The notes under the pieces were generated by a model. The model searched no databases, had not been told where the DNA came from, and saw only the letters and a program-made list of their open reading frames with translations. Positions 47,229 through 63,463 of a stretch of 64,000 bases of DNA are shown in pieces. Origin of the DNA: Granulosicoccus sp. GTDB lineage: Bacteria; Pseudomonadota; Gammaproteobacteria; Granulosicoccales; Granulosicoccaceae. Location of the stretch: NCBI GenBank assembly GCA_020627685.1, contig JAHDGK010000011.1, positions 25,107 to 89,106 of the forward strand, read 5' to 3'. Made by a program: the position numbers and the translations under genes. How positions within the stretch are numbered: the first letter of the stretch is position 1; each line of letters starts with the position of its first letter.

Positions 47229-49019
47229 CTATTTTTTGGATCCCAGGTAGGTTTGGAAATTATCTTTGGACAAAGGCTTACTAAAGAAATAGCCCTGTAT
47301 TACATCGCATTTATAGTGATTTAAAAATTTCACCTGCTCTATTTTCTCAACGCCCTCAGCGACTACTTTTTGCCCTAAGCTGTGGGCCATAGCGATAATA
47401 GCTATTGCAATAGAATTATCGTCTTCGTTCCCTGGGACGTCCATTAAAAATGAACGATCGATTTTCAGCTCATCAATAGGGAATTTTTTAAGATAACTCA
47501 GGGACGAATAACCCGTTCCGAAATCATCAAGCGAAAAGGACACGCCCAGCTTTTTGATATCGTGAAGCAGACTAGCTAGCTGATCTACATCACCCATTAG
47601 CATGCTTTCGGTAATTTCCAGCACCAGTTTATTAGGATTCATCCCACTGGACTCCAAGCAGGCAACTACCTTCGATTTAAAATCTGGCTCAAGAAATTGA
47701 TTTGCTGACACGTTTACGGAAACCTTAAGCGATTCATACCCCATAGCATGCCATTCACTGGTGCGATGGCAGGCCTCGCGCATTACCCAATCGCCTATGG
47801 CTACAATCAATCCTGCTTCTTCAGCAACAGGAATAAATTTTTCAGGTGAAATAAAACCAAAATCAGGGTGCTTCCAGCGAATAAGACACTCCATTCCCAT
47901 GACCCTTTTACGCCTAATGTCGACTTTGGGCTGATAATGAAGTTCGAACTGATCATTCTCCAAGGCAGTTCTCAAGTCCGTCGCCATCTTCATCAACGCT
48001 CTGGAGTGCGCTTCCATCTCGTTGGAATAGTATTGGTATCGATCCCTTCCTCGTTTCTTCGCAAAATCTTTAGCTGAACCAGCCCTTTTAAGGAGCGTTC
48101 CGACTTCTATGCCGTCTTCTGGGAAAACAGAGATGCCAATGCTTGCCGTTAAGTAAACATCTTCACCATCGAGAGAAATAGGCTGTTTAATTTCGCTCAA
48201 TACCCTATCGGTAATTACCGTTGCGTCAGTAACACTGTTGACACCATGAACCACGATAGAGAATTCGTCTCCGCCTATTCTGGCCGTATCCTCCACGACC
48301 GTACTCGCGTCGACCCGACCGACAACATCGCTATTTCTGACAATCGAATTAAGTCTATCGGCGACAATTTGAAGTATTTGATCACCAAGATAGACGCCAA
48401 GTGATTCATTGACTTGCTGAAAGCGATCTAAACCAATGACCAGCAGAACCAGTGATTTGTTTTCTCGTTTAGCCTGACTAACGCTTTTTCCAAGGTAATC
48501 TAAAAATAATTTCCGGTTTGGCAACCCTGTGAGACTATCGTAGAACGCCAACTGATCTTGATAAGCCTTCGCTGTTAGCGTATTCCTCACTCGCAAGGCT
48601 AACTCACTGGGATCAACCGGTTTTGACAGAAAATCAGTAGCGCCCAGCTCTAGCGCTTTGAGCTTGTTATCGGGGTCTTCTGATGCCGTGAGAATAATGA
48701 CTGGGAAATGTTCATACCCGTCAATTTTCCTGACTCTTTCCAGCACTTCAAAGCCATCGACAGCGGGCATGTCCAAGTCAAGCAACAGCATATCCGGGTT
48801 TTCTTTTTGTAGGACATCTATTGCTGTGGTTGAATCCTGTACCGGCACAAAGTGCTTATAGCCGACGTCTTCGAGTAGCGCCTGAACGATCTCGAGCATG
48901 ACTGGTTCATCGTCAACCAGCATGATGGTGGAATTTTTCAAACGCACCTGACGCTGGTCACCGTTCACGGCAACGGGTTCCTTAATATTTTCCTCAATTT
49001 TGAGCGCAGCAGTATTCAT
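47229..49019 (-). CDS. response regulator with REC-GGDEF-EAL domains
   Basis: REC TIMLVDDEPVMLEIVQALL...MLLLDLDMPAVDG; ARIGGDEFSIVV; EAL region MECLIRWKHPDFG, VNVSANQFLEPDF, LDDFGTGYSSLSYLKKFPIDELKIDRSF. Confidence 0.95.
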   Translation of the reverse strand: MNTAALKIEENIKEPVAVNGDQRQVRLKNSTIMLVDDEPVMLEIVQALLEDVGYKHFVPVQDSTTAIDVLQKENPDMLLLDLDMPAVDGFEVLERVRKIDGYEHFPVIILTASEDPDNKLKALELGATDFLSKPVDPSELALRVRNTLTAKAYQDQLAFYDSLTGLPNRKLFLDYLGKSVSQAKRENKSLVLLVIGLDRFQQVNESLGVYLGDQILQIVADRLNSIVRNSDVVGRVDASTVVEDTARIGGDEFSIVVHGVNSVTDATVITDRVLSEIKQPISLDGEDVYLTASIGISVFPEDGIEVGTLLKRAGSAKDFAKKRGRDRYQYYSNEMEAHSRALMKMATDLRTALENDQFELHYQPKVDIRRKRVMGMECLIRWKHPDFGFISPEKFIPVAEEAGLIVAIGDWVMREACHRTSEWHAMGYESLKVSVNVSANQFLEPDFKSKVVACLESSGMNPNKLVLEITESMLMGDVDQLASLLHDIKKLGVSFSLDDFGTGYSSLSYLKKFPIDELKIDRSFLMDVPGNEDDNSIAIAIIAMAHSLGQKVVAEGVEKIEQVKFLNHYKCDVIQGYFFSKPLSKDNFQTYLGSKK

Positions 49020-49023
49020 ATTT

Positions 49024-51897
49024 TTACATCTTATCTACTTGCTGAATGCGACTATTGAGTTGCTTGATGACACTGACCGTATGTTTGATAGAGTCTACTT
49101 GCCTTTGTTTCGCATGATTTTCTAAATCTCTGGCGGGTTCCGTAAACGCATTGAATCCAAGAGATCCACCCGATGCTTTTAGCCAGTGACCAAATTGTTC
49201 AATTTCCTGATAATCCTTCCTGACGACAGCAAGATCAATGACCTTACATTTTTCAGACAATTCGCCAACGAATTTTCCGATGACCGGTTTGAGTCGAGGC
49301 TGTGTCTGCATAAGACGAGAACTTAAGACCTCTGGAATGACATAGTCTTTTTGATGTGTAACGTTAAGAACACTGGACTCCGTCTCATCATCTTCACTCA
49401 CACTAACTCTGTTATATATTGATTTTATGGTGTCGATTGCATCTGGAATTTTTTCGTCATTTTGATCCTTTGCAAACTGCTCAAACAACCTCGCGGGCTC
49501 AACAAACTGGTCGAAACCTACGGTACCAGATGACCCTTTCAACCAATGGCCCAAGCTTTTCAGTTCCGCATAGTCCCGAATTTCCCACGCATTATCGATA
49601 GCGGTTAATTGCTCACCTAACCGTACGACAAATTTCTCGACTATTTCACGAAATTTGGGATTGGATGCCACAAGACTCGATACTATTTTATCGCCGTCGC
49701 AAGTTGATGAATCGTTCGCCGCTCTTTTTTCCAAAATGGGTAGCTCATCAAGTTCGGTTTTAGCCACTTGCTTCCCTTCTAGAAGTTCAGCCAAACGATT
49801 AATTAATCGATCTATATTGACCGGTTTAGCCATGTATTCGCTGTAACCCGCGTCAAGGCATTTTTGTTCTGCGCCTACCATTGCATCTGCTGTCATAGCA
49901 ATGACTGGCAACGTGTAGTTCCGTTCTCGCATCAGGCCTGCCGCCGTGTAACCATCCATTGTCGGCATTTGAACGTCCATCAAAACGATGTCTACCTCAT
50001 TAGCAGAGAGCTGATCCAGTGCTACTTGCCCGTTTTCAGCCGATATGACATTTATTCCCACGTCTGCAAGAACCACCTCGAGTAATTCTCGATTTTCATC
50101 CCCGTCGTCGACCACCAAAATGGTGGAATTGGGAAACTCCCAGTGTGTTACTTCAGCTTTCGCCTGTTGCCATTGATTTGATAATACTTCGTCAATACTG
50201 AGACGTTTGATACCTTCCAAAGACCCTGTACTGACACTGGCGGTGAATTGACTGCCTTCACCAGCACCACTTTTTACAACAATATCCCCACCCAAGGCTT
50301 CAGCGAAGCGCTTACTGATGGTAAGGCCTAACCCTGTTCCACCAAATCGTCGGGTGATCGAGCTATCAGCTTGTGTAAACGGGTTAAATACATCAACGGC
50401 CTGTTGTGGCGTCATCCCAATACCGGTATCGATAATATCTATGGACAATGATGAATCGTCACCGTTTTCGTGTAACCGCGTAACAACCTTAACCCCACCG
50501 GCTGAGGTGAATTTAATTGCGTTACCAATAAGGTTAGTCACTATCTGTCTCAGCTTTCCTGCATCTGTGGCGATGTACTCAGGTAACGGCCCTTCGGGCT
50601 CAAATTCCAGGTAGATATTCTTTTCATCAGCCTTTACCTGCAAGATCTGAACAACTTCATGAATTATCTGATGTGCTGGAGTGTTTGTTTTCTCTATCTC
50701 AATTCTGCCAGCCTCAACTTTAGACAAATCCAGAATGTCATTAATCAGGTTAAGCAGATGATTCCCGCTTGATGAGATTGTATTGAGGTAACGGAAGCTA
50801 TCTTCACTATTTCTGTCGGATGCACGTTTAAGTACCTCTGAGAAGCCCAGTATGGCATTCATGGGAGTTCTGATTTCGTGACTCATATTGGCAAGAAATT
50901 CACTTTTAAAGCGATTGGCCTGCTCCGCTTCCTCCTTGGAAATGCGAAGTTCAATTTCTTTTTGTTCAAGCTCGGTCACATCATCAAAGCTGATCAGTAC
51001 ACCTGCGGGTTTTGTACCGCCTGACAAAATCGGTGAGCAGTTAACCATGAAGGTTCGATTCTCCTCGCCTTCAATTTGCATTCTGATCATATCGCCGGTA
51101 CGCGCCAAGCCGTCAGCCAGAGTTTTAGACCACGGTACCTCGGAGAGTTCCAGCTTTTGATTGTCTCTATCAAACCAGTCAAATTCAGTGGCTTTTCGAC
51201 CTACCAGCGTATCCGAAGATCCGTTGGTGAGCTTGGAAAACGCATAGTTGGCCAGTACGACATTTTCTTTTCCATCAAGCACCAACAACCCTTCTGCCAT
51301 GGTATCGAATGCCGACCGCACACGATCTGGAACAGCCTGCGACGGATCCAACTGTTTAAGCATTTTTCCTAGGTACAAATAGAAGAACAGAAAACTGCTG
51401 AAAGAAATAACGCCAATCAATATGAAAACCGGTTCGAGGAATCTGCCATACCATGTCTCTGGCATCAACTCTTCAAATCGGAGCTCCACCTGGCCCCAGA
51501 CATTCGAACCCTCAAAAATGGGGACTACAATTTGGGAATCTACCGAGTTCCCATCCTCCATATCTCGCCAGTTGTTGACGTGGTCACTGATAACAGCAAC
51601 CAGTTTTCCATTTTGTTGTCGTACACCCGCAGATAAAATCTCTTCATTCCTATCGACAACGATCTCTAAGTTCGCGTTCATACGACGAATGTCCGACGAC
51701 GTAATGAAGATAGAACTATTGACTGCGATGGCTTCTGCCAGACGTGCATGGGCATCACGGATAGCGCCGTTCCTATCAGGGACTATGCCTGCCATAGAAG
51801 ACAACAGCAACAACGTCACGATAATACTGGTGAGACCAAGGGCAATCCTTATTCGCGCCGCGTGACCTTTAAATATCCGCTCAAGCACAATTGTCAC
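49024..51897 (-). CDS. hybrid sensor histidine kinase: periplasmic sensor, PAS, HisKA, HATPase, REC, two Hpt domains
   Basis: [57 protein letters not shown]...[14 protein letters not shown]; Hpt [13 protein letters not shown] and [13 protein letters not shown]. Confidence 0.93.
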
Positions 51898-51926
51898 CTG
51901 TAGGATAAAGTTGAATCATGTCGGTC

Positions 51927-54900
51927 TCATTCATCAACTTCATCCCCTTTTTGTTTAACGACTTCATCCTCGTCTTTTTCTTTAACCATTGACTCCAGAG
52001 ATTCATCATCATCTGAGTCGTCGCTGTGCAGACTTCCAAGCACAGGTAATGGATCGATAAACCGCCATGCAGGCAAGGACGACAAGGCACTACTGAGCAA
52101 GATGCCGCTTCGGGCCAGCCAAATGACATATCCCACAGATAAACCCGCCGTAGCAGTCATACTACTGCCAATGATTTTGTCACTGGTTTTAGTTTCGGAA
52201 TCCAACTCCTCACGCAAAGAATCCAGCCTGTAAACTAATGACTCTGCGCCAATGTATTGCAGTGGATCCTGAAGAAAGTTCAGTTGATCGGTTAGTTCAC
52301 TTTTTAAAATATTGATAGCTGTTGGTTTGTAGACAGCCAAACGAGTAACCTTGTCATCGACTCCATTGTCGATATCATCGCGCACTACTTGAAAATCATT
52401 AATTTCAGCTTCGAGGTCAATATCTACAACATCTGTAGACGGACTGTCGAAATCTTCTGCCTGTTCTACGACATCGACACTCTCCTCAGAGAATTCTTCT
52501 TCTACCGCCTCCTCATCTGTCGTTTCTTCAGATGCTGGCTCCTCCTCTGATTCCTCAGTTTGTGCTTCTTCCTCTGGTTCCTCTTCTGGCTCTTCATCCG
52601 TAACAACATCCGGTAACGCTGCTGCGGGTGGCTCTATATCAGGTAAGGGGGTAACGTTAATAACTATAGTCCCAACAATAGGACCACTGGCATCCTCGTC
52701 GCCATCATCAATTGAGACACTGACTGTAGTGCTTTCAGTATTATCCGGAGCAGGTATAAATTCGACATTAGTCAACGCCGCATTCACTTCTTCAACAGGT
52801 GCTGTTAAGGTCCAGACGCCAGTGTCTGCACTATACGTGGCGCCGTCGTTACTGCTTAAGCTACCGGCATTGACATTGGCTAAAACCAGAGTAGCCGTGA
52901 TAGTTTCTTCACTATCAATGTCGACAATACTAAATGTATTTAAAGGAACACTCTCAGCACCCTCTGTATAGTCAGTTGACCCATCTAGATCTGACACAAC
53001 TGGGGCATCATTCACGGGCGTGACTACCAAGGTTACGGTGCCTTTGACCTTTGGGTCTTCGCCGCCATCATCGTCATCTATCCTGACGCGAATTGAGGTA
53101 TCTCTATCGTTGTCAGGCTGAGGAAAGAAAACAACGTTTTCCAAAGCAACATTGACACGCTCGACCGTGTCGGTAATCGTCCAAATACCTGTATTAGCAT
53201 CATACTCAGCACCGTCTTCAGCGCTAAGACTTCCTGTGTCAGTATCGACCAATATTAATTTGGCCGTTATTATTTCACCCGCATCTGCATCACTAACAAC
53301 GATATCGGCAATAGGCACAGACAACTCGCCTTCTTCATACGTGGATATACTTTCTATATTGGTTGCCGTAGGTTGGTCATTCACCGGGTCAACGATTAAC
53401 TGAACTGTTCCAGTAAGGGCATCTGATACTGGTGTTCCGATATCACGAATGCTTACCGATATACTTGAGTTCAATTCGTTGTTGGCAGCTGGAATAAATA
53501 TTACATTGGCGAGTGCCGTATTGGTGTCTTCAACGGTTCCGGAAAAACTCCAAATTCCTGTATTAACATCATAGCTTGCACCGTCATTATCACTCAGAGC
53601 ACCGGTGCTGGTATCAGACAGCACTAAGCTTGCAACAATAGTATCACCGGCATCAATATCACCTACTACGATGTTATCGATGTCAACGCTTAAGTCATCC
53701 TCAGTATAGTTTGAAGTGCTGTTAAGGTTAGTTGCAACAGCAGTGTCGTTTTCTGCAATGACATTCAACGTTATGGTACCGCTTAGCGCAGCGCTACCAT
53801 CCTCGTCACCATCATCAATCTCAACAGAAATACTTGTGTCTAAGTCGTTATTAACAGCCGGCAAATATTGTAAATTCGCCAACGCGGCATTTACGTCTGA
53901 CAGCGCCCCTGAGATTTCCCAAATTCCTGTGGTACTGTTGTAACTAGCCCCATTATTATTGCTTAGCGTTCCAGTTGTCACATCAGCCAATGTCAAAGTG
54001 GCAGTGACGTCTTCATTAGCATCGACATCGCTGATGACTATATTATCGATATCAACACTGGTATCACCTTCAGCGTAATCGGAAATACTATTGAGATTTG
54101 TGGCAATCGGCGCATCATTCACCGGGGTAACATTTAGAGAAATGGTACCGGTGAGTGGTCCACCACCATCCTCATCATTATCGTCTATTTCAACAGAGAT
54201 ACTGGTATCAACTTCATTGTCCGCTAAAGGGATAAAAGTAAGATTTTCAAGTGCCGTATTCACTGACGCGACACTGTCTGAAATACTCCATACTCCGCTA
54301 CTGGCATCGTATGTAGCACCGTCGTTAGAGCTTAATGAACCTGTACCGGTATTGGCAAGAGTCAATGTTGCCGTTACGTCTTCACCTGAGTCTGCATCAG
54401 TAACTTCGATATCGTCAATCGCTACGCTGGCATCCCCTTCTGTGTAAGATGAAATGCTATCTAGATTCGTCGCGGTTGGTGGGGTGTTTGGGATGCTGTT
54501 GACTATTGAGATAGTTCCCGTGAGCGGGCCGCTATTGTCATCATCATCAATGACTACATCAATAGTATTGTTATTGTCGTTTGTGAATATTGGGTCATAT
54601 TCTACATTGGCTAGCGCCGTATTAACTTCACTTAACGTTCCGGTGATAGTCCATCTGCCCGTAAAAGTATTATAGGTAGCGTTATCATTGGGAGTTAACC
54701 TACCCCATTCTTGCCTATCAACAGTCAGTGTTGCGGTAATAACCTCATTCGTATCGGCATCGCTTACCACGATATCAGCCAGCGGAACATTTGCACCAAC
54801 TACAGTAATCAGTGCGGTGGTGGTTAAATTTGTAGCCGTTGGTACATCATTTGAGGGAGTAACATCTAGACTGATCGACCCTGTCAGGGGACCGCTACCA

Positions 54901-57900
54901 TCACCATCGCCGTCGTCAATGATCACACTAATAGTAGTGTTCACATCATTATTTTCGGCAGGTAGAAACTGTAGGTTAGCAAGCGCCGTATTAACGTTAT
55001 CGACACTGTCTGTTATTGTCCAAACACCACTGGCAGCATCATAGGTGGCGCCATCGTTATTGGTTAATACGCCGGTAGACGTATTTTGCAAGGTTAGGCT
55101 TGCCGTTATAATTTCCCCGACATCGACATCAGTGACCTCAATGTCAGTGATGGAAACACTGGCATCGCCTTCGTTATAAGAACTGGTCGAATTGAGATTT
55201 TCAGCTGTTGGTGGAGTGTTCTCGGTAACTTTGACTTGTTGATCTGGTGTAAAAACTAATTGACTAGGGTCGTTGAGACCACCCGATCCACTGGCCACAA
55301 ACACTTCATCTGTGGTCCCATCTGTTCGTATGACAGTATTGTCCTGGAAGCTTGTGGAATAGATTCGTCCATCTGGACCGATACCTACGCCAGAGGCGAA
55401 ATCCAGTTCAGGATGTGACGTATAGGTGGTTAAGTTAGTTCCGTCCCAACGAGCTACTTCGTTGTCATCTCCATTCGCTATAAATAAATCGCCTGCTCCA
55501 TCGAATACCAATTGTTCCGGTTGATTCAATCCTGAGTTTATAATGACTGTAGGTGCCCCACCCAAATCTCCGTCAACCATGAGAATTTGATCATCGGTTG
55601 AATCTGAAATGTAGAGATTACCGTCCGGCCCAAAAACGACATCTTCGGGACTATCTAAGGGCCCACCTTCACTCCATACATCTATGAATGCTCCACTAGG
55701 ATCAAATCGGAGAATGTTATCGTCTTTATTGTTTGCAACGTATAAATTGCCATCCGCGCCCCAAGCTAACCCGGCAGGATCGTCTAGTTCCGTCGCATCA
55801 GCGAATATACCTAAATAAGAGCCGTCCGGTGCAAAATGGACAATGTTGTTGCTATTAAAACCCGAAACGTAAAAATTGCCATCAGGTCCTACAGTGATTC
55901 CGTACGGGTTCCTTAAATCATTTCCCGTGGGATCAAAAAAATCATCTGAGACAGTCCCGGTATCTCCATCGATAACAAAAATTTGGTCTCCGCCCCTAAA
56001 ACTAGTTGTCACTAGATCACTATTAGTAATGGTGTCGTTTACATCATTAGCCGTAAAAGTAATATTGTTAGTAAAGCCAACGTTTGTATAGACATGCGTT
56101 ACTGTGGTGGTCAGCCCAGCATAGGCTTCAGTGGTGACAGTACCGTCTCCCCAGTTGACGGTGTACGTCGTGATACCACTAGTACCAGGCTCATCAACGG
56201 TCAGTGTTAACGCATAGGGTTCACCTGTATTGACCTCTGTAGCTCCGCTGGCACTTACAGTCGGCGCAATATCATTCAAATCAGCCGTCACCAATATATC
56301 TGACGTCAATTCACCATCATCAGCTTCAACCGTTACTGATAGCTGCGGTGCCGCTTCAAAATCGAGATCGTCATCGTCGTTCACAGTAATGACACCGGTC
56401 GCGCTATCAACGGCAAAAGCAGGATTGCCATCGCCATCTAAGTCAACATTAGATGTCAGCGTATAGGTTATCCCCGCGTCCGCTGCACCTCCATCACCGT
56501 CGTTTGCGTCAATATCACCCACGACAATACCTACAGCGCTTCCTTCATCGACAGGGAAAGGACCATTGCTGGTAAATACAGGAACACTGTTACTTGACGC
56601 TTCATACGCACCGATATCAGGTGTTACATCTCGTGTTAGGCCTCTTTGATCGACCACTGGAGCACCTGACAGACCGGCAGGATCTATGGCAACAGCGGTG
56701 CCTGTGCCAGTCAACAATTCATGAATTCTTGTCGGCCCTCCGTTATTGACTAGCGGTCCTAAATCGACAGTGACATTAATCTGATCACTCGGGTCGGTTA
56801 ACTCAGAAACCGTGTTGGTATCAATGTTATGACCGTTCGATATGATGTTTCCAGCGAGATTATCTCCGGAATTATCAAGTAAGGTGTTTCGCAAAACAGC
56901 ACTACCTGATCCACTAGGCTCTACTTGTATGCCGGATGCGCCACCGCTTGCTACATTGTCAGCAAGCGTAGTGTTTACGAGAGAGACTGCACCACCTTGC
57001 ACGTAGATTCCACCGCCATCCGCCGATGAAGTGTTGGTGCTAATGGTAGTGTTGACTATGCTGGCATCCGATTCCGCATAAATTCCAGCACCTTGTGCAG
57101 CCTGGTTCTGACTGATTTCTACGCGCTCAAGACTAGTTGCGGATCCTGCTGCTGTATAAAGCGCACCTCCGCTCCCAGTTGCTACGTTTGCGATAAGAAC
57201 ACTGTCCTCGACAGCCAATGTTCCCGCATTTTGGATACCAGCACCCGAGTCAGCAGAACCACCCAAAATCGAAATTCCAGAGATATCAAGACCCACCCCA
57301 GCATGAACATCAAAGACACGGTCTAAACTATCTGCATCGATCTGTGTTGTCCTGGCACCAGCACCTTGTATGGTTAACTGTTCGGTGACATCCAAGTCAC
57401 CGCTAGCCGCTAAATCTTCGCCTGCCCCACTTTGCGTCAGCGTATATAAACCGCTCGGTAGCGTAATGGAATCATCCCCTGCTAGCGCGTTCGCTTCCAT
57501 GATAGCGGCACGTAAGGAGGTGTTGCCATTCGCATCAACGGCAACTCCATCGCCGGGGTTTATATCTACCGTGTCATCTGTAACATTAACGGTGAAGTTG
57601 GCGAGTACACTTGCGTATTTACTTTGTAGTTGCGCATCAAATGCCACTGCAGAATCAATTTCACCAATACGATGCTCTAATTCCCAGTCACCGCCCAGTA
57701 CAGACGCACCGGTTAGGTCGTCACTGGCGGCAACATCTGCCGACGTGAGCATCGATAGCCGCTCTAATAACAGCTGACCATTCGTATCCGCAGCAAGCTC
57801 ACAGCCATAAATGAGAAGATCCGCGCTGTCATTCAAAGATGTGGCCCACCCTTGTATAGACTCGCTATAACTATCGATATTCAGGCTCGATAGCCACGCA

Positions 57901-58430
57901 TTTCCCAGTTGTAAACCCTGAGCGCCTCCATGACTGACAATATGAATCGCATCGACATCATGAAAGTCCTCTAATGCGTTAGAAATTTTTTCGATACCGT
58001 TCGCGTTAGCGTCCAGAATCAAGACTTGATAATGGGTATCGGGATCAACCCGTAGTCCATCTATGAGCGACTCATAATCGGGAGTCGCTGAGTCAACAAA
58101 AATGATCTCCTGCCGCCCCTCGAACTCATACTCAAGTTCATCAAGGGAAGCATCATAAAGTAGAGCTGAATTGGCAGGGTTAGTTTCAAGGTCGCGGTTA
58201 TTTTGTACGTCAGCAAGACCATCCAGGTTGACTAACTCTGAAGCGTCATTCTGACTCGGAGATTCAGTTTGCTGACTCTCTAAAGAGAATGCATCGGACA
58301 GATACAACGCGCTCTGAGTCAAATCTAATGCTGTATTTTCAGCCGTGTACAGTTGATCGACAGCAACCAAGCCCGCAAAGGCATCAGCTGAATACAAAAT
58401 TTTCGGCTCCATGCGCTCAAAGAAAAACAC
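51927..58430 (-). CDS. giant LEPR-XLL / DUF4347 / CSLREA-type beta-helix / PKD-cadherin / NHL-propeller / 7x cadherin-like repeat protein with C-terminal acidic linker and hydrophobic segment
   Basis: 2167 aa. N-terminus ERMEPKILYSADAF (LEPR-XLL), DUF4347 (IIFVDSATPDYESLIDGL...IHIVSHGG...LLIYGCELAA), NTSLRAAIMEANA beta-helix entry, propeller PYGITVGPDGNFYVSGF..., then seven ~123-aa repeats. Confidence 0.92.
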   Translation of the reverse strand: MFFFERMEPKILYSADAFAGLVAVDQLYTAENTALDLTQSALYLSDAFSLESQQTESPSQNDASELVNLDGLADVQNNRDLETNPANSALLYDASLDELEYEFEGRQEIIFVDSATPDYESLIDGLRVDPDTHYQVLILDANANGIEKISNALEDFHDVDAIHIVSHGGAQGLQLGNAWLSSLNIDSYSESIQGWATSLNDSADLLIYGCELAADTNGQLLLERLSMLTSADVAASDDLTGASVLGGDWELEHRIGEIDSAVAFDAQLQSKYASVLANFTVNVTDDTVDINPGDGVAVDANGNTSLRAAIMEANALAGDDSITLPSGLYTLTQSGAGEDLAASGDLDVTEQLTIQGAGARTTQIDADSLDRVFDVHAGVGLDISGISILGGSADSGAGIQNAGTLAVEDSVLIANVATGSGGALYTAAGSATSLERVEISQNQAAQGAGIYAESDASIVNTTISTNTSSADGGGIYVQGGAVSLVNTTLADNVASGGASGIQVEPSGSGSAVLRNTLLDNSGDNLAGNIISNGHNIDTNTVSELTDPSDQINVTVDLGPLVNNGGPTRIHELLTGTGTAVAIDPAGLSGAPVVDQRGLTRDVTPDIGAYEASSNSVPVFTSNGPFPVDEGSAVGIVVGDIDANDGDGGAADAGITYTLTSNVDLDGDGNPAFAVDSATGVITVNDDDDLDFEAAPQLSVTVEADDGELTSDILVTADLNDIAPTVSASGATEVNTGEPYALTLTVDEPGTSGITTYTVNWGDGTVTTEAYAGLTTTVTHVYTNVGFTNNITFTANDVNDTITNSDLVTTSFRGGDQIFVIDGDTGTVSDDFFDPTGNDLRNPYGITVGPDGNFYVSGFNSNNIVHFAPDGSYLGIFADATELDDPAGLAWGADGNLYVANNKDDNILRFDPSGAFIDVWSEGGPLDSPEDVVFGPDGNLYISDSTDDQILMVDGDLGGAPTVIINSGLNQPEQLVFDGAGDLFIANGDDNEVARWDGTNLTTYTSHPELDFASGVGIGPDGRIYSTSFQDNTVIRTDGTTDEVFVASGSGGLNDPSQLVFTPDQQVKVTENTPPTAENLNSTSSYNEGDASVSITDIEVTDVDVGEIITASLTLQNTSTGVLTNNDGATYDAASGVWTITDSVDNVNTALANLQFLPAENNDVNTTISVIIDDGDGDGSGPLTGSISLDVTPSNDVPTATNLTTTALITVVGANVPLADIVVSDADTNEVITATLTVDRQEWGRLTPNDNATYNTFTGRWTITGTLSEVNTALANVEYDPIFTNDNNNTIDVVIDDDDNSGPLTGTISIVNSIPNTPPTATNLDSISSYTEGDASVAIDDIEVTDADSGEDVTATLTLANTGTGSLSSNDGATYDASSGVWSISDSVASVNTALENLTFIPLADNEVDTSISVEIDDNDEDGGGPLTGTISLNVTPVNDAPIATNLNSISDYAEGDTSVDIDNIVISDVDANEDVTATLTLADVTTGTLSNNNGASYNSTTGIWEISGALSDVNAALANLQYLPAVNNDLDTSISVEIDDGDEDGSAALSGTITLNVIAENDTAVATNLNSTSNYTEDDLSVDIDNIVVGDIDAGDTIVASLVLSDTSTGALSDNDGASYDVNTGIWSFSGTVEDTNTALANVIFIPAANNELNSSISVSIRDIGTPVSDALTGTVQLIVDPVNDQPTATNIESISTYEEGELSVPIADIVVSDADAGEIITAKLILVDTDTGSLSAEDGAEYDANTGIWTITDTVERVNVALENVVFFPQPDNDRDTSIRVRIDDDDGGEDPKVKGTVTLVVTPVNDAPVVSDLDGSTDYTEGAESVPLNTFSIVDIDSEETITATLVLANVNAGSLSSNDGATYSADTGVWTLTAPVEEVNAALTNVEFIPAPDNTESTTVSVSIDDGDEDASGPIVGTIVINVTPLPDIEPPAAALPDVVTDEEPEEEPEEEAQTEESEEEPASEETTDEEAVEEEFSEESVDVVEQAEDFDSPSTDVVDIDLEAEINDFQVVRDDIDNGVDDKVTRLAVYKPTAINILKSELTDQLNFLQDPLQYIGAESLVYRLDSLREELDSETKTSDKIIGSSMTATAGLSVGYVIWLARSGILLSSALSSLPAWRFIDPLPVLGSLHSDDSDDDESLESMVKEKDEDEVVKQKGDEVDE
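52639..55218 (-). repeat. seven tandem coding repeats of about 123 aa (369 bp), cadherin-like
   Basis: Each unit: PTATNLxSxSxYxEGDxSVxIxDIxVxDxDxxExITATLxLxxxxTGxLSxNDGAxYDxxTGxWxIxxxxxxVNxALxNxxFxPxxNNxxxTSIxVxIDDxDxDxxGxLxGTIxLxVTPVND. Confidence 0.92.
55223..55997 (-). other. domain segment: NHL/SMP30-like beta-propeller inside the giant protein
   Basis: Repeated GPDGNFYVSGFNSNNIVHF / GADGNLYVANNKDDNILRFDPSG / GPDGNLYISDSTDDQILMVDG / GAGDLFIANGDDNEVARW / GPDGRIYSTSFQDNTVIR. Confidence 0.85.
57636..58106 (-). other. domain segment: DUF4347
   Basis: IIFVDSATPDYESLIDGL ... DAIHIVSHGGAQGLQLGNAWL ... LLIYGCELAADTNGQLLLERLSMLTSADVAASDDLTGAS. Confidence 0.88.
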
Positions 58431-58555
58431 AGGCGCACGCGAATCCGATTCGCCAAAATCACTAGAATCAGAGCTTGTAAACCGCTTTTCGATGATTTAC
58501 TCCGAACCTGGAAAGCAAATCAACAGAAAAATAGAATGGGCTACTTTAAGAAACA

Positions 58556-59947
58556 TCAGTAGATTTTACGAGTCGTTGAATCGAAGCCCAAGCCGTCCAA
58601 CATCTGCTGGCGGTTGTCAGCATTTTTTTGTTTGCTAAATACACCCAATGAAATAATGCGCTTGTTGGGACCTTTATCGATTCTGTGAAAGTCCTCGATT
58701 CCTGAAGCCTTTAATTTTTCAACGAGTTCTCGTGCAGCCGCATCATCTTCAGGTTGTCTTATTAAAACCATATAACTCTTAGGCCCAACGGTCTCTGATT
58801 CTTTATTGCTTGATGCTTCAATTTTTGGAGAATCCGTTACATCATCATCCAACGGCACAGCATCAACAACAAGATCTTCAACATTGACGATGGCAGGTAG
58901 CGATGCCGAAGCTAGAACCAGAACAGGTGAGTTCTCATCGGGTAATTCTGATTCACCTGGCTCAGACAGCAGTTCTGGTGCTAGTGGTTCCACGCTGACT
59001 TGTGCATCATAGATTTCATCGCCAACTTCGGAATTCGCAGAATCGGCAAGGATGGAAATCGATGGATTGCTTATATGGGCTGAAGCATCGGTTTCTTCCG
59101 CCGAGTTTGCTTGATCCGCGCCTGGCTTCATAAATTTTAATATGCACTTCAAGCCAGCCGGTATCTGATAATCCGGGTTGGGAATACTCAGTTTCACACC
59201 AAAGCTACTGCTTGCAGCATCACCCACTCGATCAACGGCAATCACTTCTGCCATTAGCTCTTTTTGACGCAGCACTTCCAATAAAATTTCGGCATGCATA
59301 CCTGATTTTATTGAACCAAAATACTCCATGGGTACAATGGCTTCAACCACCAAGGGGTCAAGTTGGGCTAACTGTAAAATCGGCTGATCGTCAACGTGCT
59401 CCCCTGAGTTTTTATAGGTATCGAGTACAAAACCATCAAAAGGCGCTTTAATCAATTTCTGATTTAGCTGCTCTTCTGCTTTTCTCAGTTCCAGTTTTCG
59501 AATTTGGGCCAGCTCTTTGGCCTGTGCCAGATTCCAGTTCGAAAGTTGTAGGTCTCGCTCCGTCTGATCCACGATTTCTTTAGACACATTTTGTTCGTCC
59601 AAGAGACTTTCTACGCGTTCTTTTCGTAGTTCATCAAACTCAACATTCACTGAACTTAACCCAATGCCTGAGCCCGCTCTTGCCCTATACCTTGCCAATT
59701 CGACCGAAGCTCGTTCAACGCTGGCCTCAAGCTGCACAAGCTCCTGCCCTGCAATGACCTCTTGACTGCGTTTGACGAATATTTCATCAATTACACCGGC
59801 AACAGGACTGGAGATATCCACCACTAAATGGGGATTAACCACGCAGTCAATGCCGGGCATCGATTGATAAGGCTGGGAAAACAGGTTCGCATTTACGCTT
59901 TGACTGGATAAAAGAACCGTCAGCAGCGTTGTAAGTCTTGTAATCAT
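58556..59947 (-). CDS. HlyD-family periplasmic adaptor with C-terminal SPOR domain
   Basis: VVDISSPVAGVIDEIFVKRSQEVIAGQELVQLEASVERASVELARYRA...KAPFDGFVLDTYKNSGEHVDDQPILQLAQLDPLVVEA; C-terminus SYMVLIRQPEDDAAARELVEKLKASGIEDFHRIDKGPNKRIISLGVFSKQKNADNRQQML is SPOR-like. Confidence 0.88.
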   Translation of the reverse strand: MITRLTTLLTVLLSSQSVNANLFSQPYQSMPGIDCVVNPHLVVDISSPVAGVIDEIFVKRSQEVIAGQELVQLEASVERASVELARYRARAGSGIGLSSVNVEFDELRKERVESLLDEQNVSKEIVDQTERDLQLSNWNLAQAKELAQIRKLELRKAEEQLNQKLIKAPFDGFVLDTYKNSGEHVDDQPILQLAQLDPLVVEAIVPMEYFGSIKSGMHAEILLEVLRQKELMAEVIAVDRVGDAASSSFGVKLSIPNPDYQIPAGLKCILKFMKPGADQANSAEETDASAHISNPSISILADSANSEVGDEIYDAQVSVEPLAPELLSEPGESELPDENSPVLVLASASLPAIVNVEDLVVDAVPLDDDVTDSPKIEASSNKESETVGPKSYMVLIRQPEDDAAARELVEKLKASGIEDFHRIDKGPNKRIISLGVFSKQKNADNRQQMLDGLGFDSTTRKIY

Positions 59948-60056
59948 GGAGTTAACACGGATTTTTTGTACTGACTCTCATGATCTGAGCCATCTCTTCC
60001 TATAAATAACTCATCCAATACAGCGACGGTGACCTATATTCGTTGAAAGATAAGTC

Positions 60057-62219
60057 TTAACTAGAGAACGAAGACTGCGAGGCTAAGCTCCTGAATTTTC
60101 TAAGGTAACGATGTATCAGTGCGTCTTTCTCATGAATGAATCGCACATGAACTCTTTGCCCCAAATAACTCCCTGATGTTTCCAAGGGTAAAGCGATTTC
60201 AACTAAGAACACGTTAGATAAGAGCTGCACACCTGATTCGTCCCGAGCATCCACTTTCATGATTCCACCCGATTGCGAACCTAGCAGTTTGTTGGGCAAA
60301 CGATCTGTTGCAAGGGGTAATTCACGGATAAATTCTGCAGAGAAAGTATCCCCCGGCCTACTGCCTAACTTGGCCTCAATAGCGAGCAAATTATTTCTCA
60401 CTGCATCAATGTCCAACTGCGGAACAACCACCAAAGCGCTAATTGATTCAGCCCCGGCAACGTAACCCAGCACGTCACCACGCTTAATGTATCTACCTAA
60501 AAGATCTGGGCCTAACGTCAAAGAGACCCGGCCAGCGCTTCCACTAACAATATCGAGCTCTGATATCTGTTTTTTAACCTGCTCGATGTCCGCCTCGATT
60601 GCGGCAGCTCTGTTGTTCAAAATTTCTGATTGCGTTCTATCCACCAGAAATACAGATTGTTGAGTTGCTTTTACTTCGCCTAACTGCGCCACTAATTTTT
60701 CCAACCGGGATTTAAGCTCTATGTCTTCAAGCCCTAGGATTACACCGCCTTCATCGATAGTGGTACCGTCTGGTGCATTTACGTTTGAGACCACGCCTGT
60801 TGTCTTTGCACGAATGAGCGCTTGTTCAGGTAAATTAACAATACCCTCGCTGTAAGTACTGTGCCCAACGGGTGTTATCAGAGTGGCTACTATCAACAGA
60901 GAAGTCGTACCCGTGAACGCTAACAAGCGCTTCATTCTCCGAGCTTGATAAACTTGTGGGATGAAGTTCCACATGCTGCGAATTAGCGGATAAACGATTT
61001 GCCCGACGACAGCCCACACGGCTAGCAAAACCCCGATTATCAAAAATTTTCCAGCAACCCAAGATGCGATAAAAAGCGTGATAAACACGCGGTAGATTCG
61101 CGAAAGCACGCCGTAGCAAAACAACCATTTTGCTTCTCCGCGCGCGCTAACAGGGCGACTAACATCGGGCATATCAAGAACGTACTTTTTGAATAAATAG
61201 CGAATATATTGGTCAGAACGTGTTCCCAGATTCGGTATTTCTATCAACTCCGATAGAAGGTAGTAACCGTCAAAACGTAGCAATGGATTCGCGTTAAATA
61301 AAAGTGTTGATATACCACCGATTACAGCGATATCAAACGCAAGGTCTCGAACTAGTCCCGGGCCTGTAACCGACCAGACTAACAAAGCCGTTGCCGCAAG
61401 GAGCAGCTCAACCAAGATTCCGGCACCGCAAACTACCAACCTCTGGCTTTTCGAGCTAAATCGATGTGAAGCTGAACTATCTACATACGGCACAGGGAAA
61501 AAAACAAGAAACGTTACGCCCATTTCGCGTACCGCCCCGCCCCAAATCTTGGTCGCGTAGGCGTGCCCGAATTCATGTAGACCTTTGACCAGCGGATATA
61601 ACATCCAGTACCAAATTAAATTTTGCGGGTCTGAAAATCGTGTGGCACTGTGCTCAGCAAGCTCTGCCCCATTAACGGCGACTATGGAAAGACCGGCTAA
61701 AACCACCCCAATCCATATGAATAGCGCTAGCGGTGTTAACAGATGCTTTGCGAAAGCCGCGGTCTTATCCAGAAATCGGTCTGGATCAAGCAGTGGTATT
61801 TTAATCGCAAACGGATTTAGCCCACGTTTTTTTGGAGCGGCCGTTGTAGGCGATTTCCCGTCATGATTCGGCGCATCTTCCGCCGCAAGCAAGCCTGCAG
61901 ACTTCAAATTAGCCAGAAGCAGTATGACATCCCGTTTAAACAAAGCTACGGAGTTTGATCGTTTGCAGTCATCGAACGCCTGTTCAATGGTGCGACTGCC
62001 ATCCAATAGCCTTAAGAATTTCTCCGCCTGATAACTGCACCTAAAGTAACTTTCGTCATGTTGATTGGCGATGATTAACCAAGGTGACCCTCTATAGTGA
62101 TGCTTATAAAAACGCACCGCATTACCCAGTTGAAGCTTCAGGTTCGCAACACTCTGCCAAGCATTCTCCATGGCACTAAGACGGGTATCGGGGCTTAGGG
62201 CAGCCATCGCCAAGCCCAT
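60057..62219 (-). CDS. PqqD-like / M50 (site-2 protease-like) zinc metalloprotease / HlyD fusion
   Basis: N-terminal PqqD-like WLIIANQHDESYFRCSYQAEKFLRLLDGSRTIEQAFDDCK; KGLHEFGHAYATKIWGGAVREMGVTFLVFFPVPYVDSSAS; NANPLLRFDGYY; C-terminal biotinyl-lipoyl/HlyD region. Confidence 0.92.
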   Translation of the reverse strand: MGLAMAALSPDTRLSAMENAWQSVANLKLQLGNAVRFYKHHYRGSPWLIIANQHDESYFRCSYQAEKFLRLLDGSRTIEQAFDDCKRSNSVALFKRDVILLLANLKSAGLLAAEDAPNHDGKSPTTAAPKKRGLNPFAIKIPLLDPDRFLDKTAAFAKHLLTPLALFIWIGVVLAGLSIVAVNGAELAEHSATRFSDPQNLIWYWMLYPLVKGLHEFGHAYATKIWGGAVREMGVTFLVFFPVPYVDSSASHRFSSKSQRLVVCGAGILVELLLAATALLVWSVTGPGLVRDLAFDIAVIGGISTLLFNANPLLRFDGYYLLSELIEIPNLGTRSDQYIRYLFKKYVLDMPDVSRPVSARGEAKWLFCYGVLSRIYRVFITLFIASWVAGKFLIIGVLLAVWAVVGQIVYPLIRSMWNFIPQVYQARRMKRLLAFTGTTSLLIVATLITPVGHSTYSEGIVNLPEQALIRAKTTGVVSNVNAPDGTTIDEGGVILGLEDIELKSRLEKLVAQLGEVKATQQSVFLVDRTQSEILNNRAAAIEADIEQVKKQISELDIVSGSAGRVSLTLGPDLLGRYIKRGDVLGYVAGAESISALVVVPQLDIDAVRNNLLAIEAKLGSRPGDTFSAEFIRELPLATDRLPNKLLGSQSGGIMKVDARDESGVQLLSNVFLVEIALPLETSGSYLGQRVHVRFIHEKDALIHRYLRKFRSLASQSSFSS
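61563..61577 (-). other. M50 zinc-binding HExxH motif (HEFGH)
   Basis: Minus-strand CATGAATTCGGGCAC = H-E-F-G-H; second motif NANPLLRFDGYY at 61260-61295. Confidence 0.9.
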
Positions 62220-63463
62220 AATTTAAGGACATCGACTAATTCGTGAAAAAATATCCAACCGAATCGCCGCTTATCAATGTCTATTTTCGCGATGCCTTCC
62301 ATACCCGGCCTTAGACCTTCTGGCCGATCAACTAGACGCGCCTCTACACGATACGCACTACCCTGTCCGTCTGACGTAAAAACAGGAGATACCTTTTCAA
62401 CAACAAAGGGGAGTTTTTCGTTGGGCATGGACTTCAAAGTAAGCGCCCCTCTAAGCCCATCAGTAACATCTACAACCTGTTTCTCATCTACCAGGATGAT
62501 CAATCGATATTCATCAAGCGGCGCAACTTCGAACAATACATCTCCGGTTTTCACCGGAGCCCCTAAAGAGCGGCTCAGATCCCCGCTGATAATGACCCCA
62601 TTGAGTGATGAAACCAATCTGGAGCGTTTAATTTTCTCTTTCGTTAAATTGAGCTGGGCTTCCGCCTGCCCCACACGTGATTTAAATATGTGCGCCTGAG
62701 TATTATTGCGCTCTGTCAGGGCCTGTCGGTATTGGTGATCATATTCATTGATTTCGGCTGCAAATTTTTGCTGTTCTAACATCAGATCCTGAGTATCAAG
62801 CTCCGCTATGAGCTCTCCAGCAACAACGGTCTTACCTGCTCGTGCATGCGCCGCGGCGACATACCCGTCAAACGGTGCAACAACGGCTCTTTGTATTTCT
62901 CCCTCTAAATTCGCAGCGCCCGTTACCCGATAGGTTCCATTCACCAATACCAACGCCACGAAGAGCGCACCTAGAACCAAAAAGGTTGATGCACCACGTC
63001 GAGACTGTATTTTTTCAGCTAAGCCACCAAGCCTGGGAATTTTACGTGCAGGCTCTGCTACTTCAGGACATCGCAAACTGGGTAACAGACCCAACCATTT
63101 CTCGCCCCACCGAAGCATTTGAATGGTCGTCGATTGTTGCGACGGTTTAATGTTAACCAAAACGGCTAACGCACCATTAACGTTTTCGAAACGCGTTAGA
63201 GGTACCGCAATAATGGTATCTACTGCTACATCGGTGTCCGTCGCAACCGACAAGGTCGTCGTCACCAACTTGCGCTGACTAGAAGCCAAATTGGCCGCCA
63301 TCATCACATCTTCATGGATTGTTTCGGCACTGGGCCAACGTACAACAGGCTCGTCCCCCGGAGAGTTTCGAACCAATACGGCTTGACCAATACCAGGCAC
63401 CATCTGACACAGCAAGTCGAGCCAAGACTGTATTTGATCTGATCTATTAGTCGACATTTTCAC
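62195..63463 (-). CDS. GAF-like / HlyD-family membrane-fusion protein
   Basis: N-terminal ~150 aa GAF-like (DTIIAVPLTRFENVNGALAVLVNI), one TM, then RAVVAPFDGYVAAAHARAGKTVVAGELIAELDTQDLMLEQQKFAAEINEY... HlyD adaptor. Overlaps the M50 start by 25 nt. Confidence 0.87.
   Translation of the reverse strand: MKMSTNRSDQIQSWLDLLCQMVPGIGQAVLVRNSPGDEPVVRWPSAETIHEDVMMAANLASSQRKLVTTTLSVATDTDVAVDTIIAVPLTRFENVNGALAVLVNIKPSQQSTTIQMLRWGEKWLGLLPSLRCPEVAEPARKIPRLGGLAEKIQSRRGASTFLVLGALFVALVLVNGTYRVTGAANLEGEIQRAVVAPFDGYVAAAHARAGKTVVAGELIAELDTQDLMLEQQKFAAEINEYDHQYRQALTERNNTQAHIFKSRVGQAEAQLNLTKEKIKRSRLVSSLNGVIISGDLSRSLGAPVKTGDVLFEVAPLDEYRLIILVDEKQVVDVTDGLRGALTLKSMPNEKLPFVVEKVSPVFTSDGQGSAYRVEARLVDRPEGLRPGMEGIAKIDIDKRRFGWIFFHELVDVLKLWAWRWLP

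Follow-up and report, generated by a model that had tools for sequence, protein, structure and literature searches.

The six genes described here are, at a probability of roughly 0.6, the form taken in one lineage by a candidate export-and-processing system of Gram-negative bacteria devoted to giant proteins with an N-terminal LEPR-XLL tag. The genes lie on the minus strand of the window, a 64,000-nucleotide stretch of Granulosicoccus sp. DNA. The pairing of M50-HlyD, GAF-HlyD and HlyD genes with LEPR-XLL giants as their clients is held with high confidence. As predicted from its genes, the set is likely to recognise the giants, process them and export them without the usual ABC transporter. 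The gene set that accompanies these giants is widespread and apparently undescribed.

Gene cluster and surroundings

All six open reading frames of the initial annotation were present on the minus strand at the positions given in Table 1. From P0006 down to P0001 the first pair of genes overlaps and is followed by gaps of 109, 125, 29 and 4 nt, the first two being the gaps around the P0004 gene that had been put at about 110-125 nt. A scan of the 109- and 125-nt gaps for minus-strand terminator-like or promoter-like sites returned none, the promoter part of the scan being uninformative. Pfam and NCBIfam domain calls agreed with the six gene types, with three corrections (GAF, SPOR and PqqD). 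Both flanks consist of housekeeping or unrelated genes: metK, ahcY, GST, DUF4403 and DUF2058 on one side, and an RCC1-like protein, SSB, MFS and UvrA on the other. The cluster had been described as lacking an ABC exporter and TolC, and neither was found in the cluster, its flanks or the contig beyond the window. The full six-gene order was seen again in other genera (Marinobacter L088, of strain sp. F3R11, and L089; L086; L047+L080), so the cluster is beyond chance.

Table 1. Positions of the six genes and their mapped features in the window.
Feature	Position	Strand	Basis or remark
P0006, GAF-HlyD family protein, 422 aa	62195-63463	-	domain search; next to M50-HlyD in 69/69 named loci
P0006, periplasmic HlyD part	62300-62932	-	
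P0005, PqqD/RRE-like + M50 intramembrane metalloprotease + HlyD fusion, 720 aa	60057-62219	-	domain and profile searches
P0005, PqqD-like (RiPP-recognition-element-like) domain	61896-62159	-	family profile and structure model
P0005, HExxH	61557-61583	-	M50 active site
P0005, NANPLLRFDGY	61263-61295	-	distal Asp motif region
P0004, periplasmic HlyD/RND-type adaptor, 463 aa	58556-59947	-	RND_mfp over cut-off
P0003, LEPR-XLL giant, 2167 aa, GTG start	51927-58430	-	domain search
P0003, LEPR-XLL N-terminal tag FFERMEPKILYSADAF	58377-58424	-	NF012209, 20.5 bits (curated cut-off 17 bits)
P0003, DUF4347	57603-58106	-	SHG (residues 166-168), YGC (208-210)
P0003, C-terminal hydrophobic module GLSVGYVIWLARSG...LPAWRFIDPLPVL, acidic tail after	52035-52169	-	alignment of 12 window-type giants
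P0002, hybrid histidine kinase PAS-HisKA-HATPase-REC-Hpt-Hpt, 957 aa	49024-51897	-	domain search
P0001, REC-GGDEF-EAL protein, 596 aa, intact GGDEF motif	47229-49019	-	domain search

The giant protein

P0003 belongs to the LEPR-XLL proteins by its NF012209 score (Table 1), and residues E8, S14 and A15 of the tag were invariant across 21 giants. The tag is followed in series by DUF4347, a beta-helix/choice-of-anchor Q region, cadherin, PKD, an NHL propeller, tandem cadherin-like repeats, an acidic linker and the C-terminal module. No hydrophobic N-terminal stretch or signal helix was visible in the giants, P0003 included, and P0003 contains 0 GGxGx[DN] RTX motifs. LEPR-XLL-tagged proteins are among the largest bacterial proteins. 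Some LEPR-XLL reading frames span 14,000 to 19,427 aa (G390:C115:112865-112924; G276:C84; G349:C1) and rank with the longest ORFs in bacteria.

The SHG and GC residues of DUF4347 were invariant in the aligned giants, and the domain is a possible clan-CD-like cysteine autoprotease. A caspase-like fold was considered for DUF4347 and has been reduced to a suggestion: legumain matched at E 1.7e-3 and caspase-6 was among the weak matches, with SDR Rossmann folds ranked above. A solved chain named DUF4347 (9qpe_G) was matched weakly, at E 0.16. Two copies of DUF4347 are carried by the giants of L055 and L058, the first without the SHG and GC residues and the second with both.

The C-terminal module, GYxxWLxRSG...LPAWRxxDPLPVL, was common to the 12 aligned window-type giants. 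In the gene for the window giant, the acidic tail is encoded at the 3' end by an imperfect tandem repeat of 27 bp (window 51937-51986). SecA-type giants often terminate in G[LF]xxW plus a basic tail (L101, L103, L123, L124, L138, L150, L151, L153, L156), an end that differs from the DPLPVL module of window-type giants. This general motif, recognised by inspection, is a possible C-terminal sorting signal.

The M50-HlyD fusion, adaptors and signalling genes

Both the HExxH motif and the distal Asp of M50 proteases are present in P0005, and H215, E216, H219, N309 and D317 were invariant in 25 M50-HlyD sequences; the M50 Pfam score of P0005 was slightly below cut-off. The HlyD part of the fusion matches MexA/MacA. 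The PqqD-like domain assigned in the initial annotation was sub-threshold when P0005 was searched alone (E 0.05) and was recovered when the family profile was compared with the solved PqqD 3g2b (E 0.0017). A predicted model of P0005 has the b3a3 order of a PqqD domain at residues 35-107, and Pfam PqqD was detected in 2 of the 25 M50-HlyD members.

In RiPP pathways, leader peptides are bound by PqqD-like domains, which are present in non-export enzymes too. Binding of the LEPR-XLL tag by the PqqD-like domain of P0005, which would make this domain the reader of the tag, is proposed tentatively and at somewhat less than even odds; the weak PqqD similarity and the occurrence of such domains in non-export enzymes count against the export model. 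The top NCBIfam match of P0005 was a daptide intramembrane metalloprotease (E 1e-45, under cut-off). Together with the GAF domain of relatives and the existence of kinase/EAL clusters without a giant, this match would suit a RiPP-like maturation or sensory module, in which small peptides are modified or sensed by the PqqD-M50-HlyD protein and its place near giants has regulatory reasons. RiPP enzymes and short precursor genes were, however, not seen in the cluster, and a far stronger link exists to ORFs of 2,000 to over 10,000 aa, so that a module of this kind is considered highly improbable.

P0006 is built from a cytoplasmic N-terminal part, a transmembrane segment at about residues 157-176 and a periplasmic HlyD part. 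The GAF domain claimed for it was not detectable in the window protein and was found in 5 of 18 homologues. P0004 has an apparent N-terminal signal peptide, judged by eye from the sequence, and its assignment as a HlyD/RND adaptor held; the C-terminal SPOR domain claimed alongside was SPOR-like but scored just under the Pfam cut-off (20.5 vs 21 bits). The three HlyD-type parts in the cluster are RND_mfp-like or fused, and all fell under the type I HlyD cut-off. The genes for the phosphorelay and c-di-GMP output that the cluster was said to own are present in the window, but they stand outside the universal core and are lineage-specific. A P0002-type kinase gene also trails the cluster in several relatives.

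Co-occurrence of giants with the M50/HlyD genes

Conserved co-occurrence of the giants with M50/HlyD genes, the absence of which would have refuted the initial annotation, was found across genomes. Genome-wide co-occurrence was scored with the NCBIfam LEPR model and an M50 profile. In the phylum sample of 348 Pseudomonadota genomes the M50 system was present in 71, and M50-HlyD was found in all 34 LEPR-XLL genomes (6.9 expected; p 1.3e-27, ignoring phylogeny). In the class sample of 276 Gammaproteobacteria, M50 was found in 24 of 28 LEPR genomes (p 2.5e-19, ignoring phylogeny). The four exceptions comprised two short ORFs, one contaminated draft and one genuine case (G253), a 7373-aa LEPR protein without an M50 match that counts against the export model. 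The converse association was weaker, 37 of the 71 M50 genomes being without a LEPR match, in part because the short model overlooks variants such as QERRILFSAD (G017).

Within the phylum sample, 19 of 23 LEPR giants on the same contig as M50 lay within 6 kb of it. ORFs of at least 2000 aa were found near 25 of 38 fully flanked loci, compared with 0 of 20 random 20-kb regions (p 3e-7, ignoring phylogeny). The LEPR-XLL tag was present in 11 of 11 neighbouring giants with a readable N-terminus in newly fetched stretches, and in 16 of 17 DUF4347 giants. Among 95 closely related relatives, DUF4347 and M50 occurred together in 42 and one without the other in 4 and 2. Distances between M50 sequences correlated with those between giant N-termini (Mantel r 0.66, n = 29, p 0.0005).

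These counts also bear on ordinary type I secretion, by which an ABC exporter encoded elsewhere would export the giant and the M50/HlyD genes would be bystanders. The only type I system of the window genome is a complete T1SS on contig C13 (L211, L213; G000), consisting of an ABC protein (703 aa), HlyD (457 aa) and OMF (619 aa) with MotA/OmpA-like genes. This T1SS adjoins its own RTX giant with dozens of GGxGxD motifs, whereas the window giant has none, and the near-obligate co-occurrence of M50 and LEPR speaks against a bystander role. No match to type I HlyD (TIGR01843) was found in G096, G107, G114, G155 and G276, all of which carry LEPR giants and/or a SecA-type locus with a giant; the LEPR tag itself was matched in G114, G155 and G276, and the start of the giant was not reached in G096 and G107. 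Two of these, G114 and G155, are single-contig genomes. An ABC exporter is therefore not required, and a T1SS as the required exporter was ruled out by the five genomes and the RTX-free P0003. Export of the window giant by type I secretion is regarded as very unlikely.

Locus layouts in relatives

Relatives were found in records of Gamma-, Alpha- and Betaproteobacteria, Desulfobacterota/"Deltaproteobacteria", Myxococcota and Nitrospira. The named-genome search gave more than 580 relatives, and in the 80 loci retained as most similar to the window protein, a choice that biases proportions, GAF-HlyD adjoined M50-HlyD in 69 of 69 scorable loci, a SecA-like ATPase lay between M50 and HlyD in 54 of 69, and a separate HlyD was present in 52 of 62.

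Three main layouts were distinguished. The first, the window type, runs GAF-HlyD, M50-HlyD, HlyD, LEPR/DUF4347 giant, hybrid kinase, REC-EAL and is that of the loci in other genera named above. The second, commonest among the named loci, has the giant, often DUF3467, then GAF-HlyD, M50-HlyD, the SecA-like gene and HlyD; Methylobacterium (L106) is among the SecA-type strains. The third has a TolC-type channel, HlyD, GAF-HlyD, M50-HlyD and the giant (L084; first four genes in L078 and L085). The extra gene of about 660 aa is a SecA relative (SecA_DEAD, E 2e-84) with Walker and DEAD motifs kept, and the channel gene of one branch is OEP/TolC (E 5e-39). A search of the window genome for a dedicated SecA-like protein found none, the housekeeping SecA alone being present, on C93.

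The initial annotation missed the SecA-like and TolC-type parts because the window branch is without them locally. With these parts in relatives, its loose suggestion of 'export, processing or tethering' becomes a specific export model.

The space between the giant and GAF-HlyD in SecA-type loci often holds a small gene for DUF3467 (PF11950, E 9e-23; L101:7556-7864, L115, L116, L123, L124, L133, L159), whose product is possibly a chaperone or regulator. In a sister genus (L041-L046, L048, L059-L062) the core is followed by a GGDEF-EAL protein of about 1090 aa, and no giant is present there. Up to 10 DUF4347 proteins are encoded away from the giant-less core in one genome of this genus (G044), and a single system may therefore have many giants as clients.

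Second copies in the window genome

A second, giant-less copy on contig C3 comprises GAF-HlyD (637 aa), M50-HlyD (710 aa), HlyD (298 aa), a hybrid kinase (963 aa) and a partly masked REC-EAL gene. The second LEPR/DUF4347 giant of the genome stands alone on C18. Both kinds lie side by side in locus L053 of G023, where the M50 protein is nearest the C3 copy (53% identity; next 34%) and the N-terminus of the giant is nearest the C18 giant (41%). Since L053 joins a C3-like M50 to a C18-like giant, the split C3 and C18 parts look, from their sequences, like a second system-giant pair. The core occurs without an adjoining giant in some loci, including the C3 copy, and this counts against the export model.

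Proposed model of export and processing

The initial annotation had proposed M50/HlyD-dependent export, processing or tethering of the giant. The gene association is near-obligate; an export function of the M50/HlyD system is predicted from the genes and moderately favoured. The giant would lack a Sec signal, and in the cytoplasm the PqqD-like domain of M50-HlyD would bind its LEPR-XLL tag. A mixed inner-membrane ring would be built from M50-HlyD and GAF-HlyD, and the third HlyD would lengthen the conduit to an outer-membrane channel, with SPOR pinning HlyD to peptidoglycan in the window branch. Transfer would be powered by a SecA-type ATPase; most genomes have a dedicated one, and in the window branch the housekeeping SecA might take its place. 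Cleavage of the tag or the C-terminal module at the M50 site would release the giant or keep it at the surface, and DUF4347 may self-cleave. Display in the window branch would be adjusted via c-di-GMP by the hybrid kinase and the REC-GGDEF-EAL protein. The lack of a dedicated SecA-like protein in the window genome and of TolC in the cluster counts against this model.

The HlyD/M50 pair could also act only after export. In such a processing or tethering role the giant would be exported otherwise, and M50-HlyD, GAF-HlyD and HlyD would form a periplasm-spanning scaffold that cuts or holds it, by LapD/LapG-like logic with a membrane protease. The intact active site of the M50 protease, the conserved C-terminal hydrophobic module of window-type giants as a potential M50 cut site, the c-di-GMP genes linked in the window branch and the absence of local SecA or TolC all agree with a scaffold. 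A mere tether would nevertheless have no need of the SecA-like ATPase seen in most loci or the TolC-type channel of one branch, no Sec signal is visible in the giants and five genomes are without type I HlyD; a scaffold that only cuts or holds is thus judged unlikely, at some distance above the type I and RiPP alternatives.

It is an evenly balanced question whether the genes represent a new kind of Gram-negative secretion system, with a leader-binding M50-HlyD/GAF-HlyD inner-membrane complex, a SecA-family motor, a HlyD-TolC-type conduit and LEPR-XLL as the targeting signal. Such a system would export frames of up to about 19,000 aa and be widespread in Pseudomonadota, with further records in Desulfobacterota, Myxococcota and Nitrospirota. 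With the tag tied to one conserved gene set, a few gene deletions could test directly how the giants leave the cell. If export is true, a secretion route that brings SecA together with HlyD adaptors and an intramembrane protease would be added, and hundreds of unexplained "peptidase M50/HlyD/SecA" genes would gain a role.

Comparison with known systems

A description of LEPR-XLL/DUF4347 proteins with an M50+HlyD+PqqD or SecA+HlyD+site-2 protease system was not found among the open-access papers searched, only two of which mention the LEPR-XLL tag. Type I secretion (HlyBD-TolC, LapBCE) and tripartite efflux pumps share with the cluster HlyD/RND-type adaptors, a TolC-type channel in some relatives and giant adhesin-like substrates. 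The cluster differs in having no ABC, RND or MFS transporter, in the fusion of its adaptor parts to an M50 protease and to a GAF protein, and in a giant with an N-terminal tag and without RTX motifs.

Retention of adhesins under c-di-GMP control by LapA/LapD/LapG likewise involves genes for c-di-GMP and for a protease alongside a giant adhesin-like protein, but the protease is periplasmic LapG there and an intramembrane M50 here, where the signalling genes lie outside the conserved core. The accessory Sec system of Gram-positive bacteria (SecA2/SecY2) resembles most relatives in having a dedicated SecA-like ATPase beside giant repeat-rich surface proteins. It differs from the present genes, which occur in Gram-negative hosts with HlyD adaptors and M50 and, in the window genome, without a dedicated SecA; a SecY2 was not noted in the annotated loci.

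The M50 proteases of RiPP pathways (EpeP/YydH, daptide M50, TglG/TmoG) are alike in having a PqqD-like domain or a leader-processing role, and EpeP is thought to cleave and also export its peptide product (PMC10885120). In the system described here, by contrast, the partner is a giant protein rather than a peptide, the protease carries a fused HlyD part and GAF-HlyD is its constant partner.
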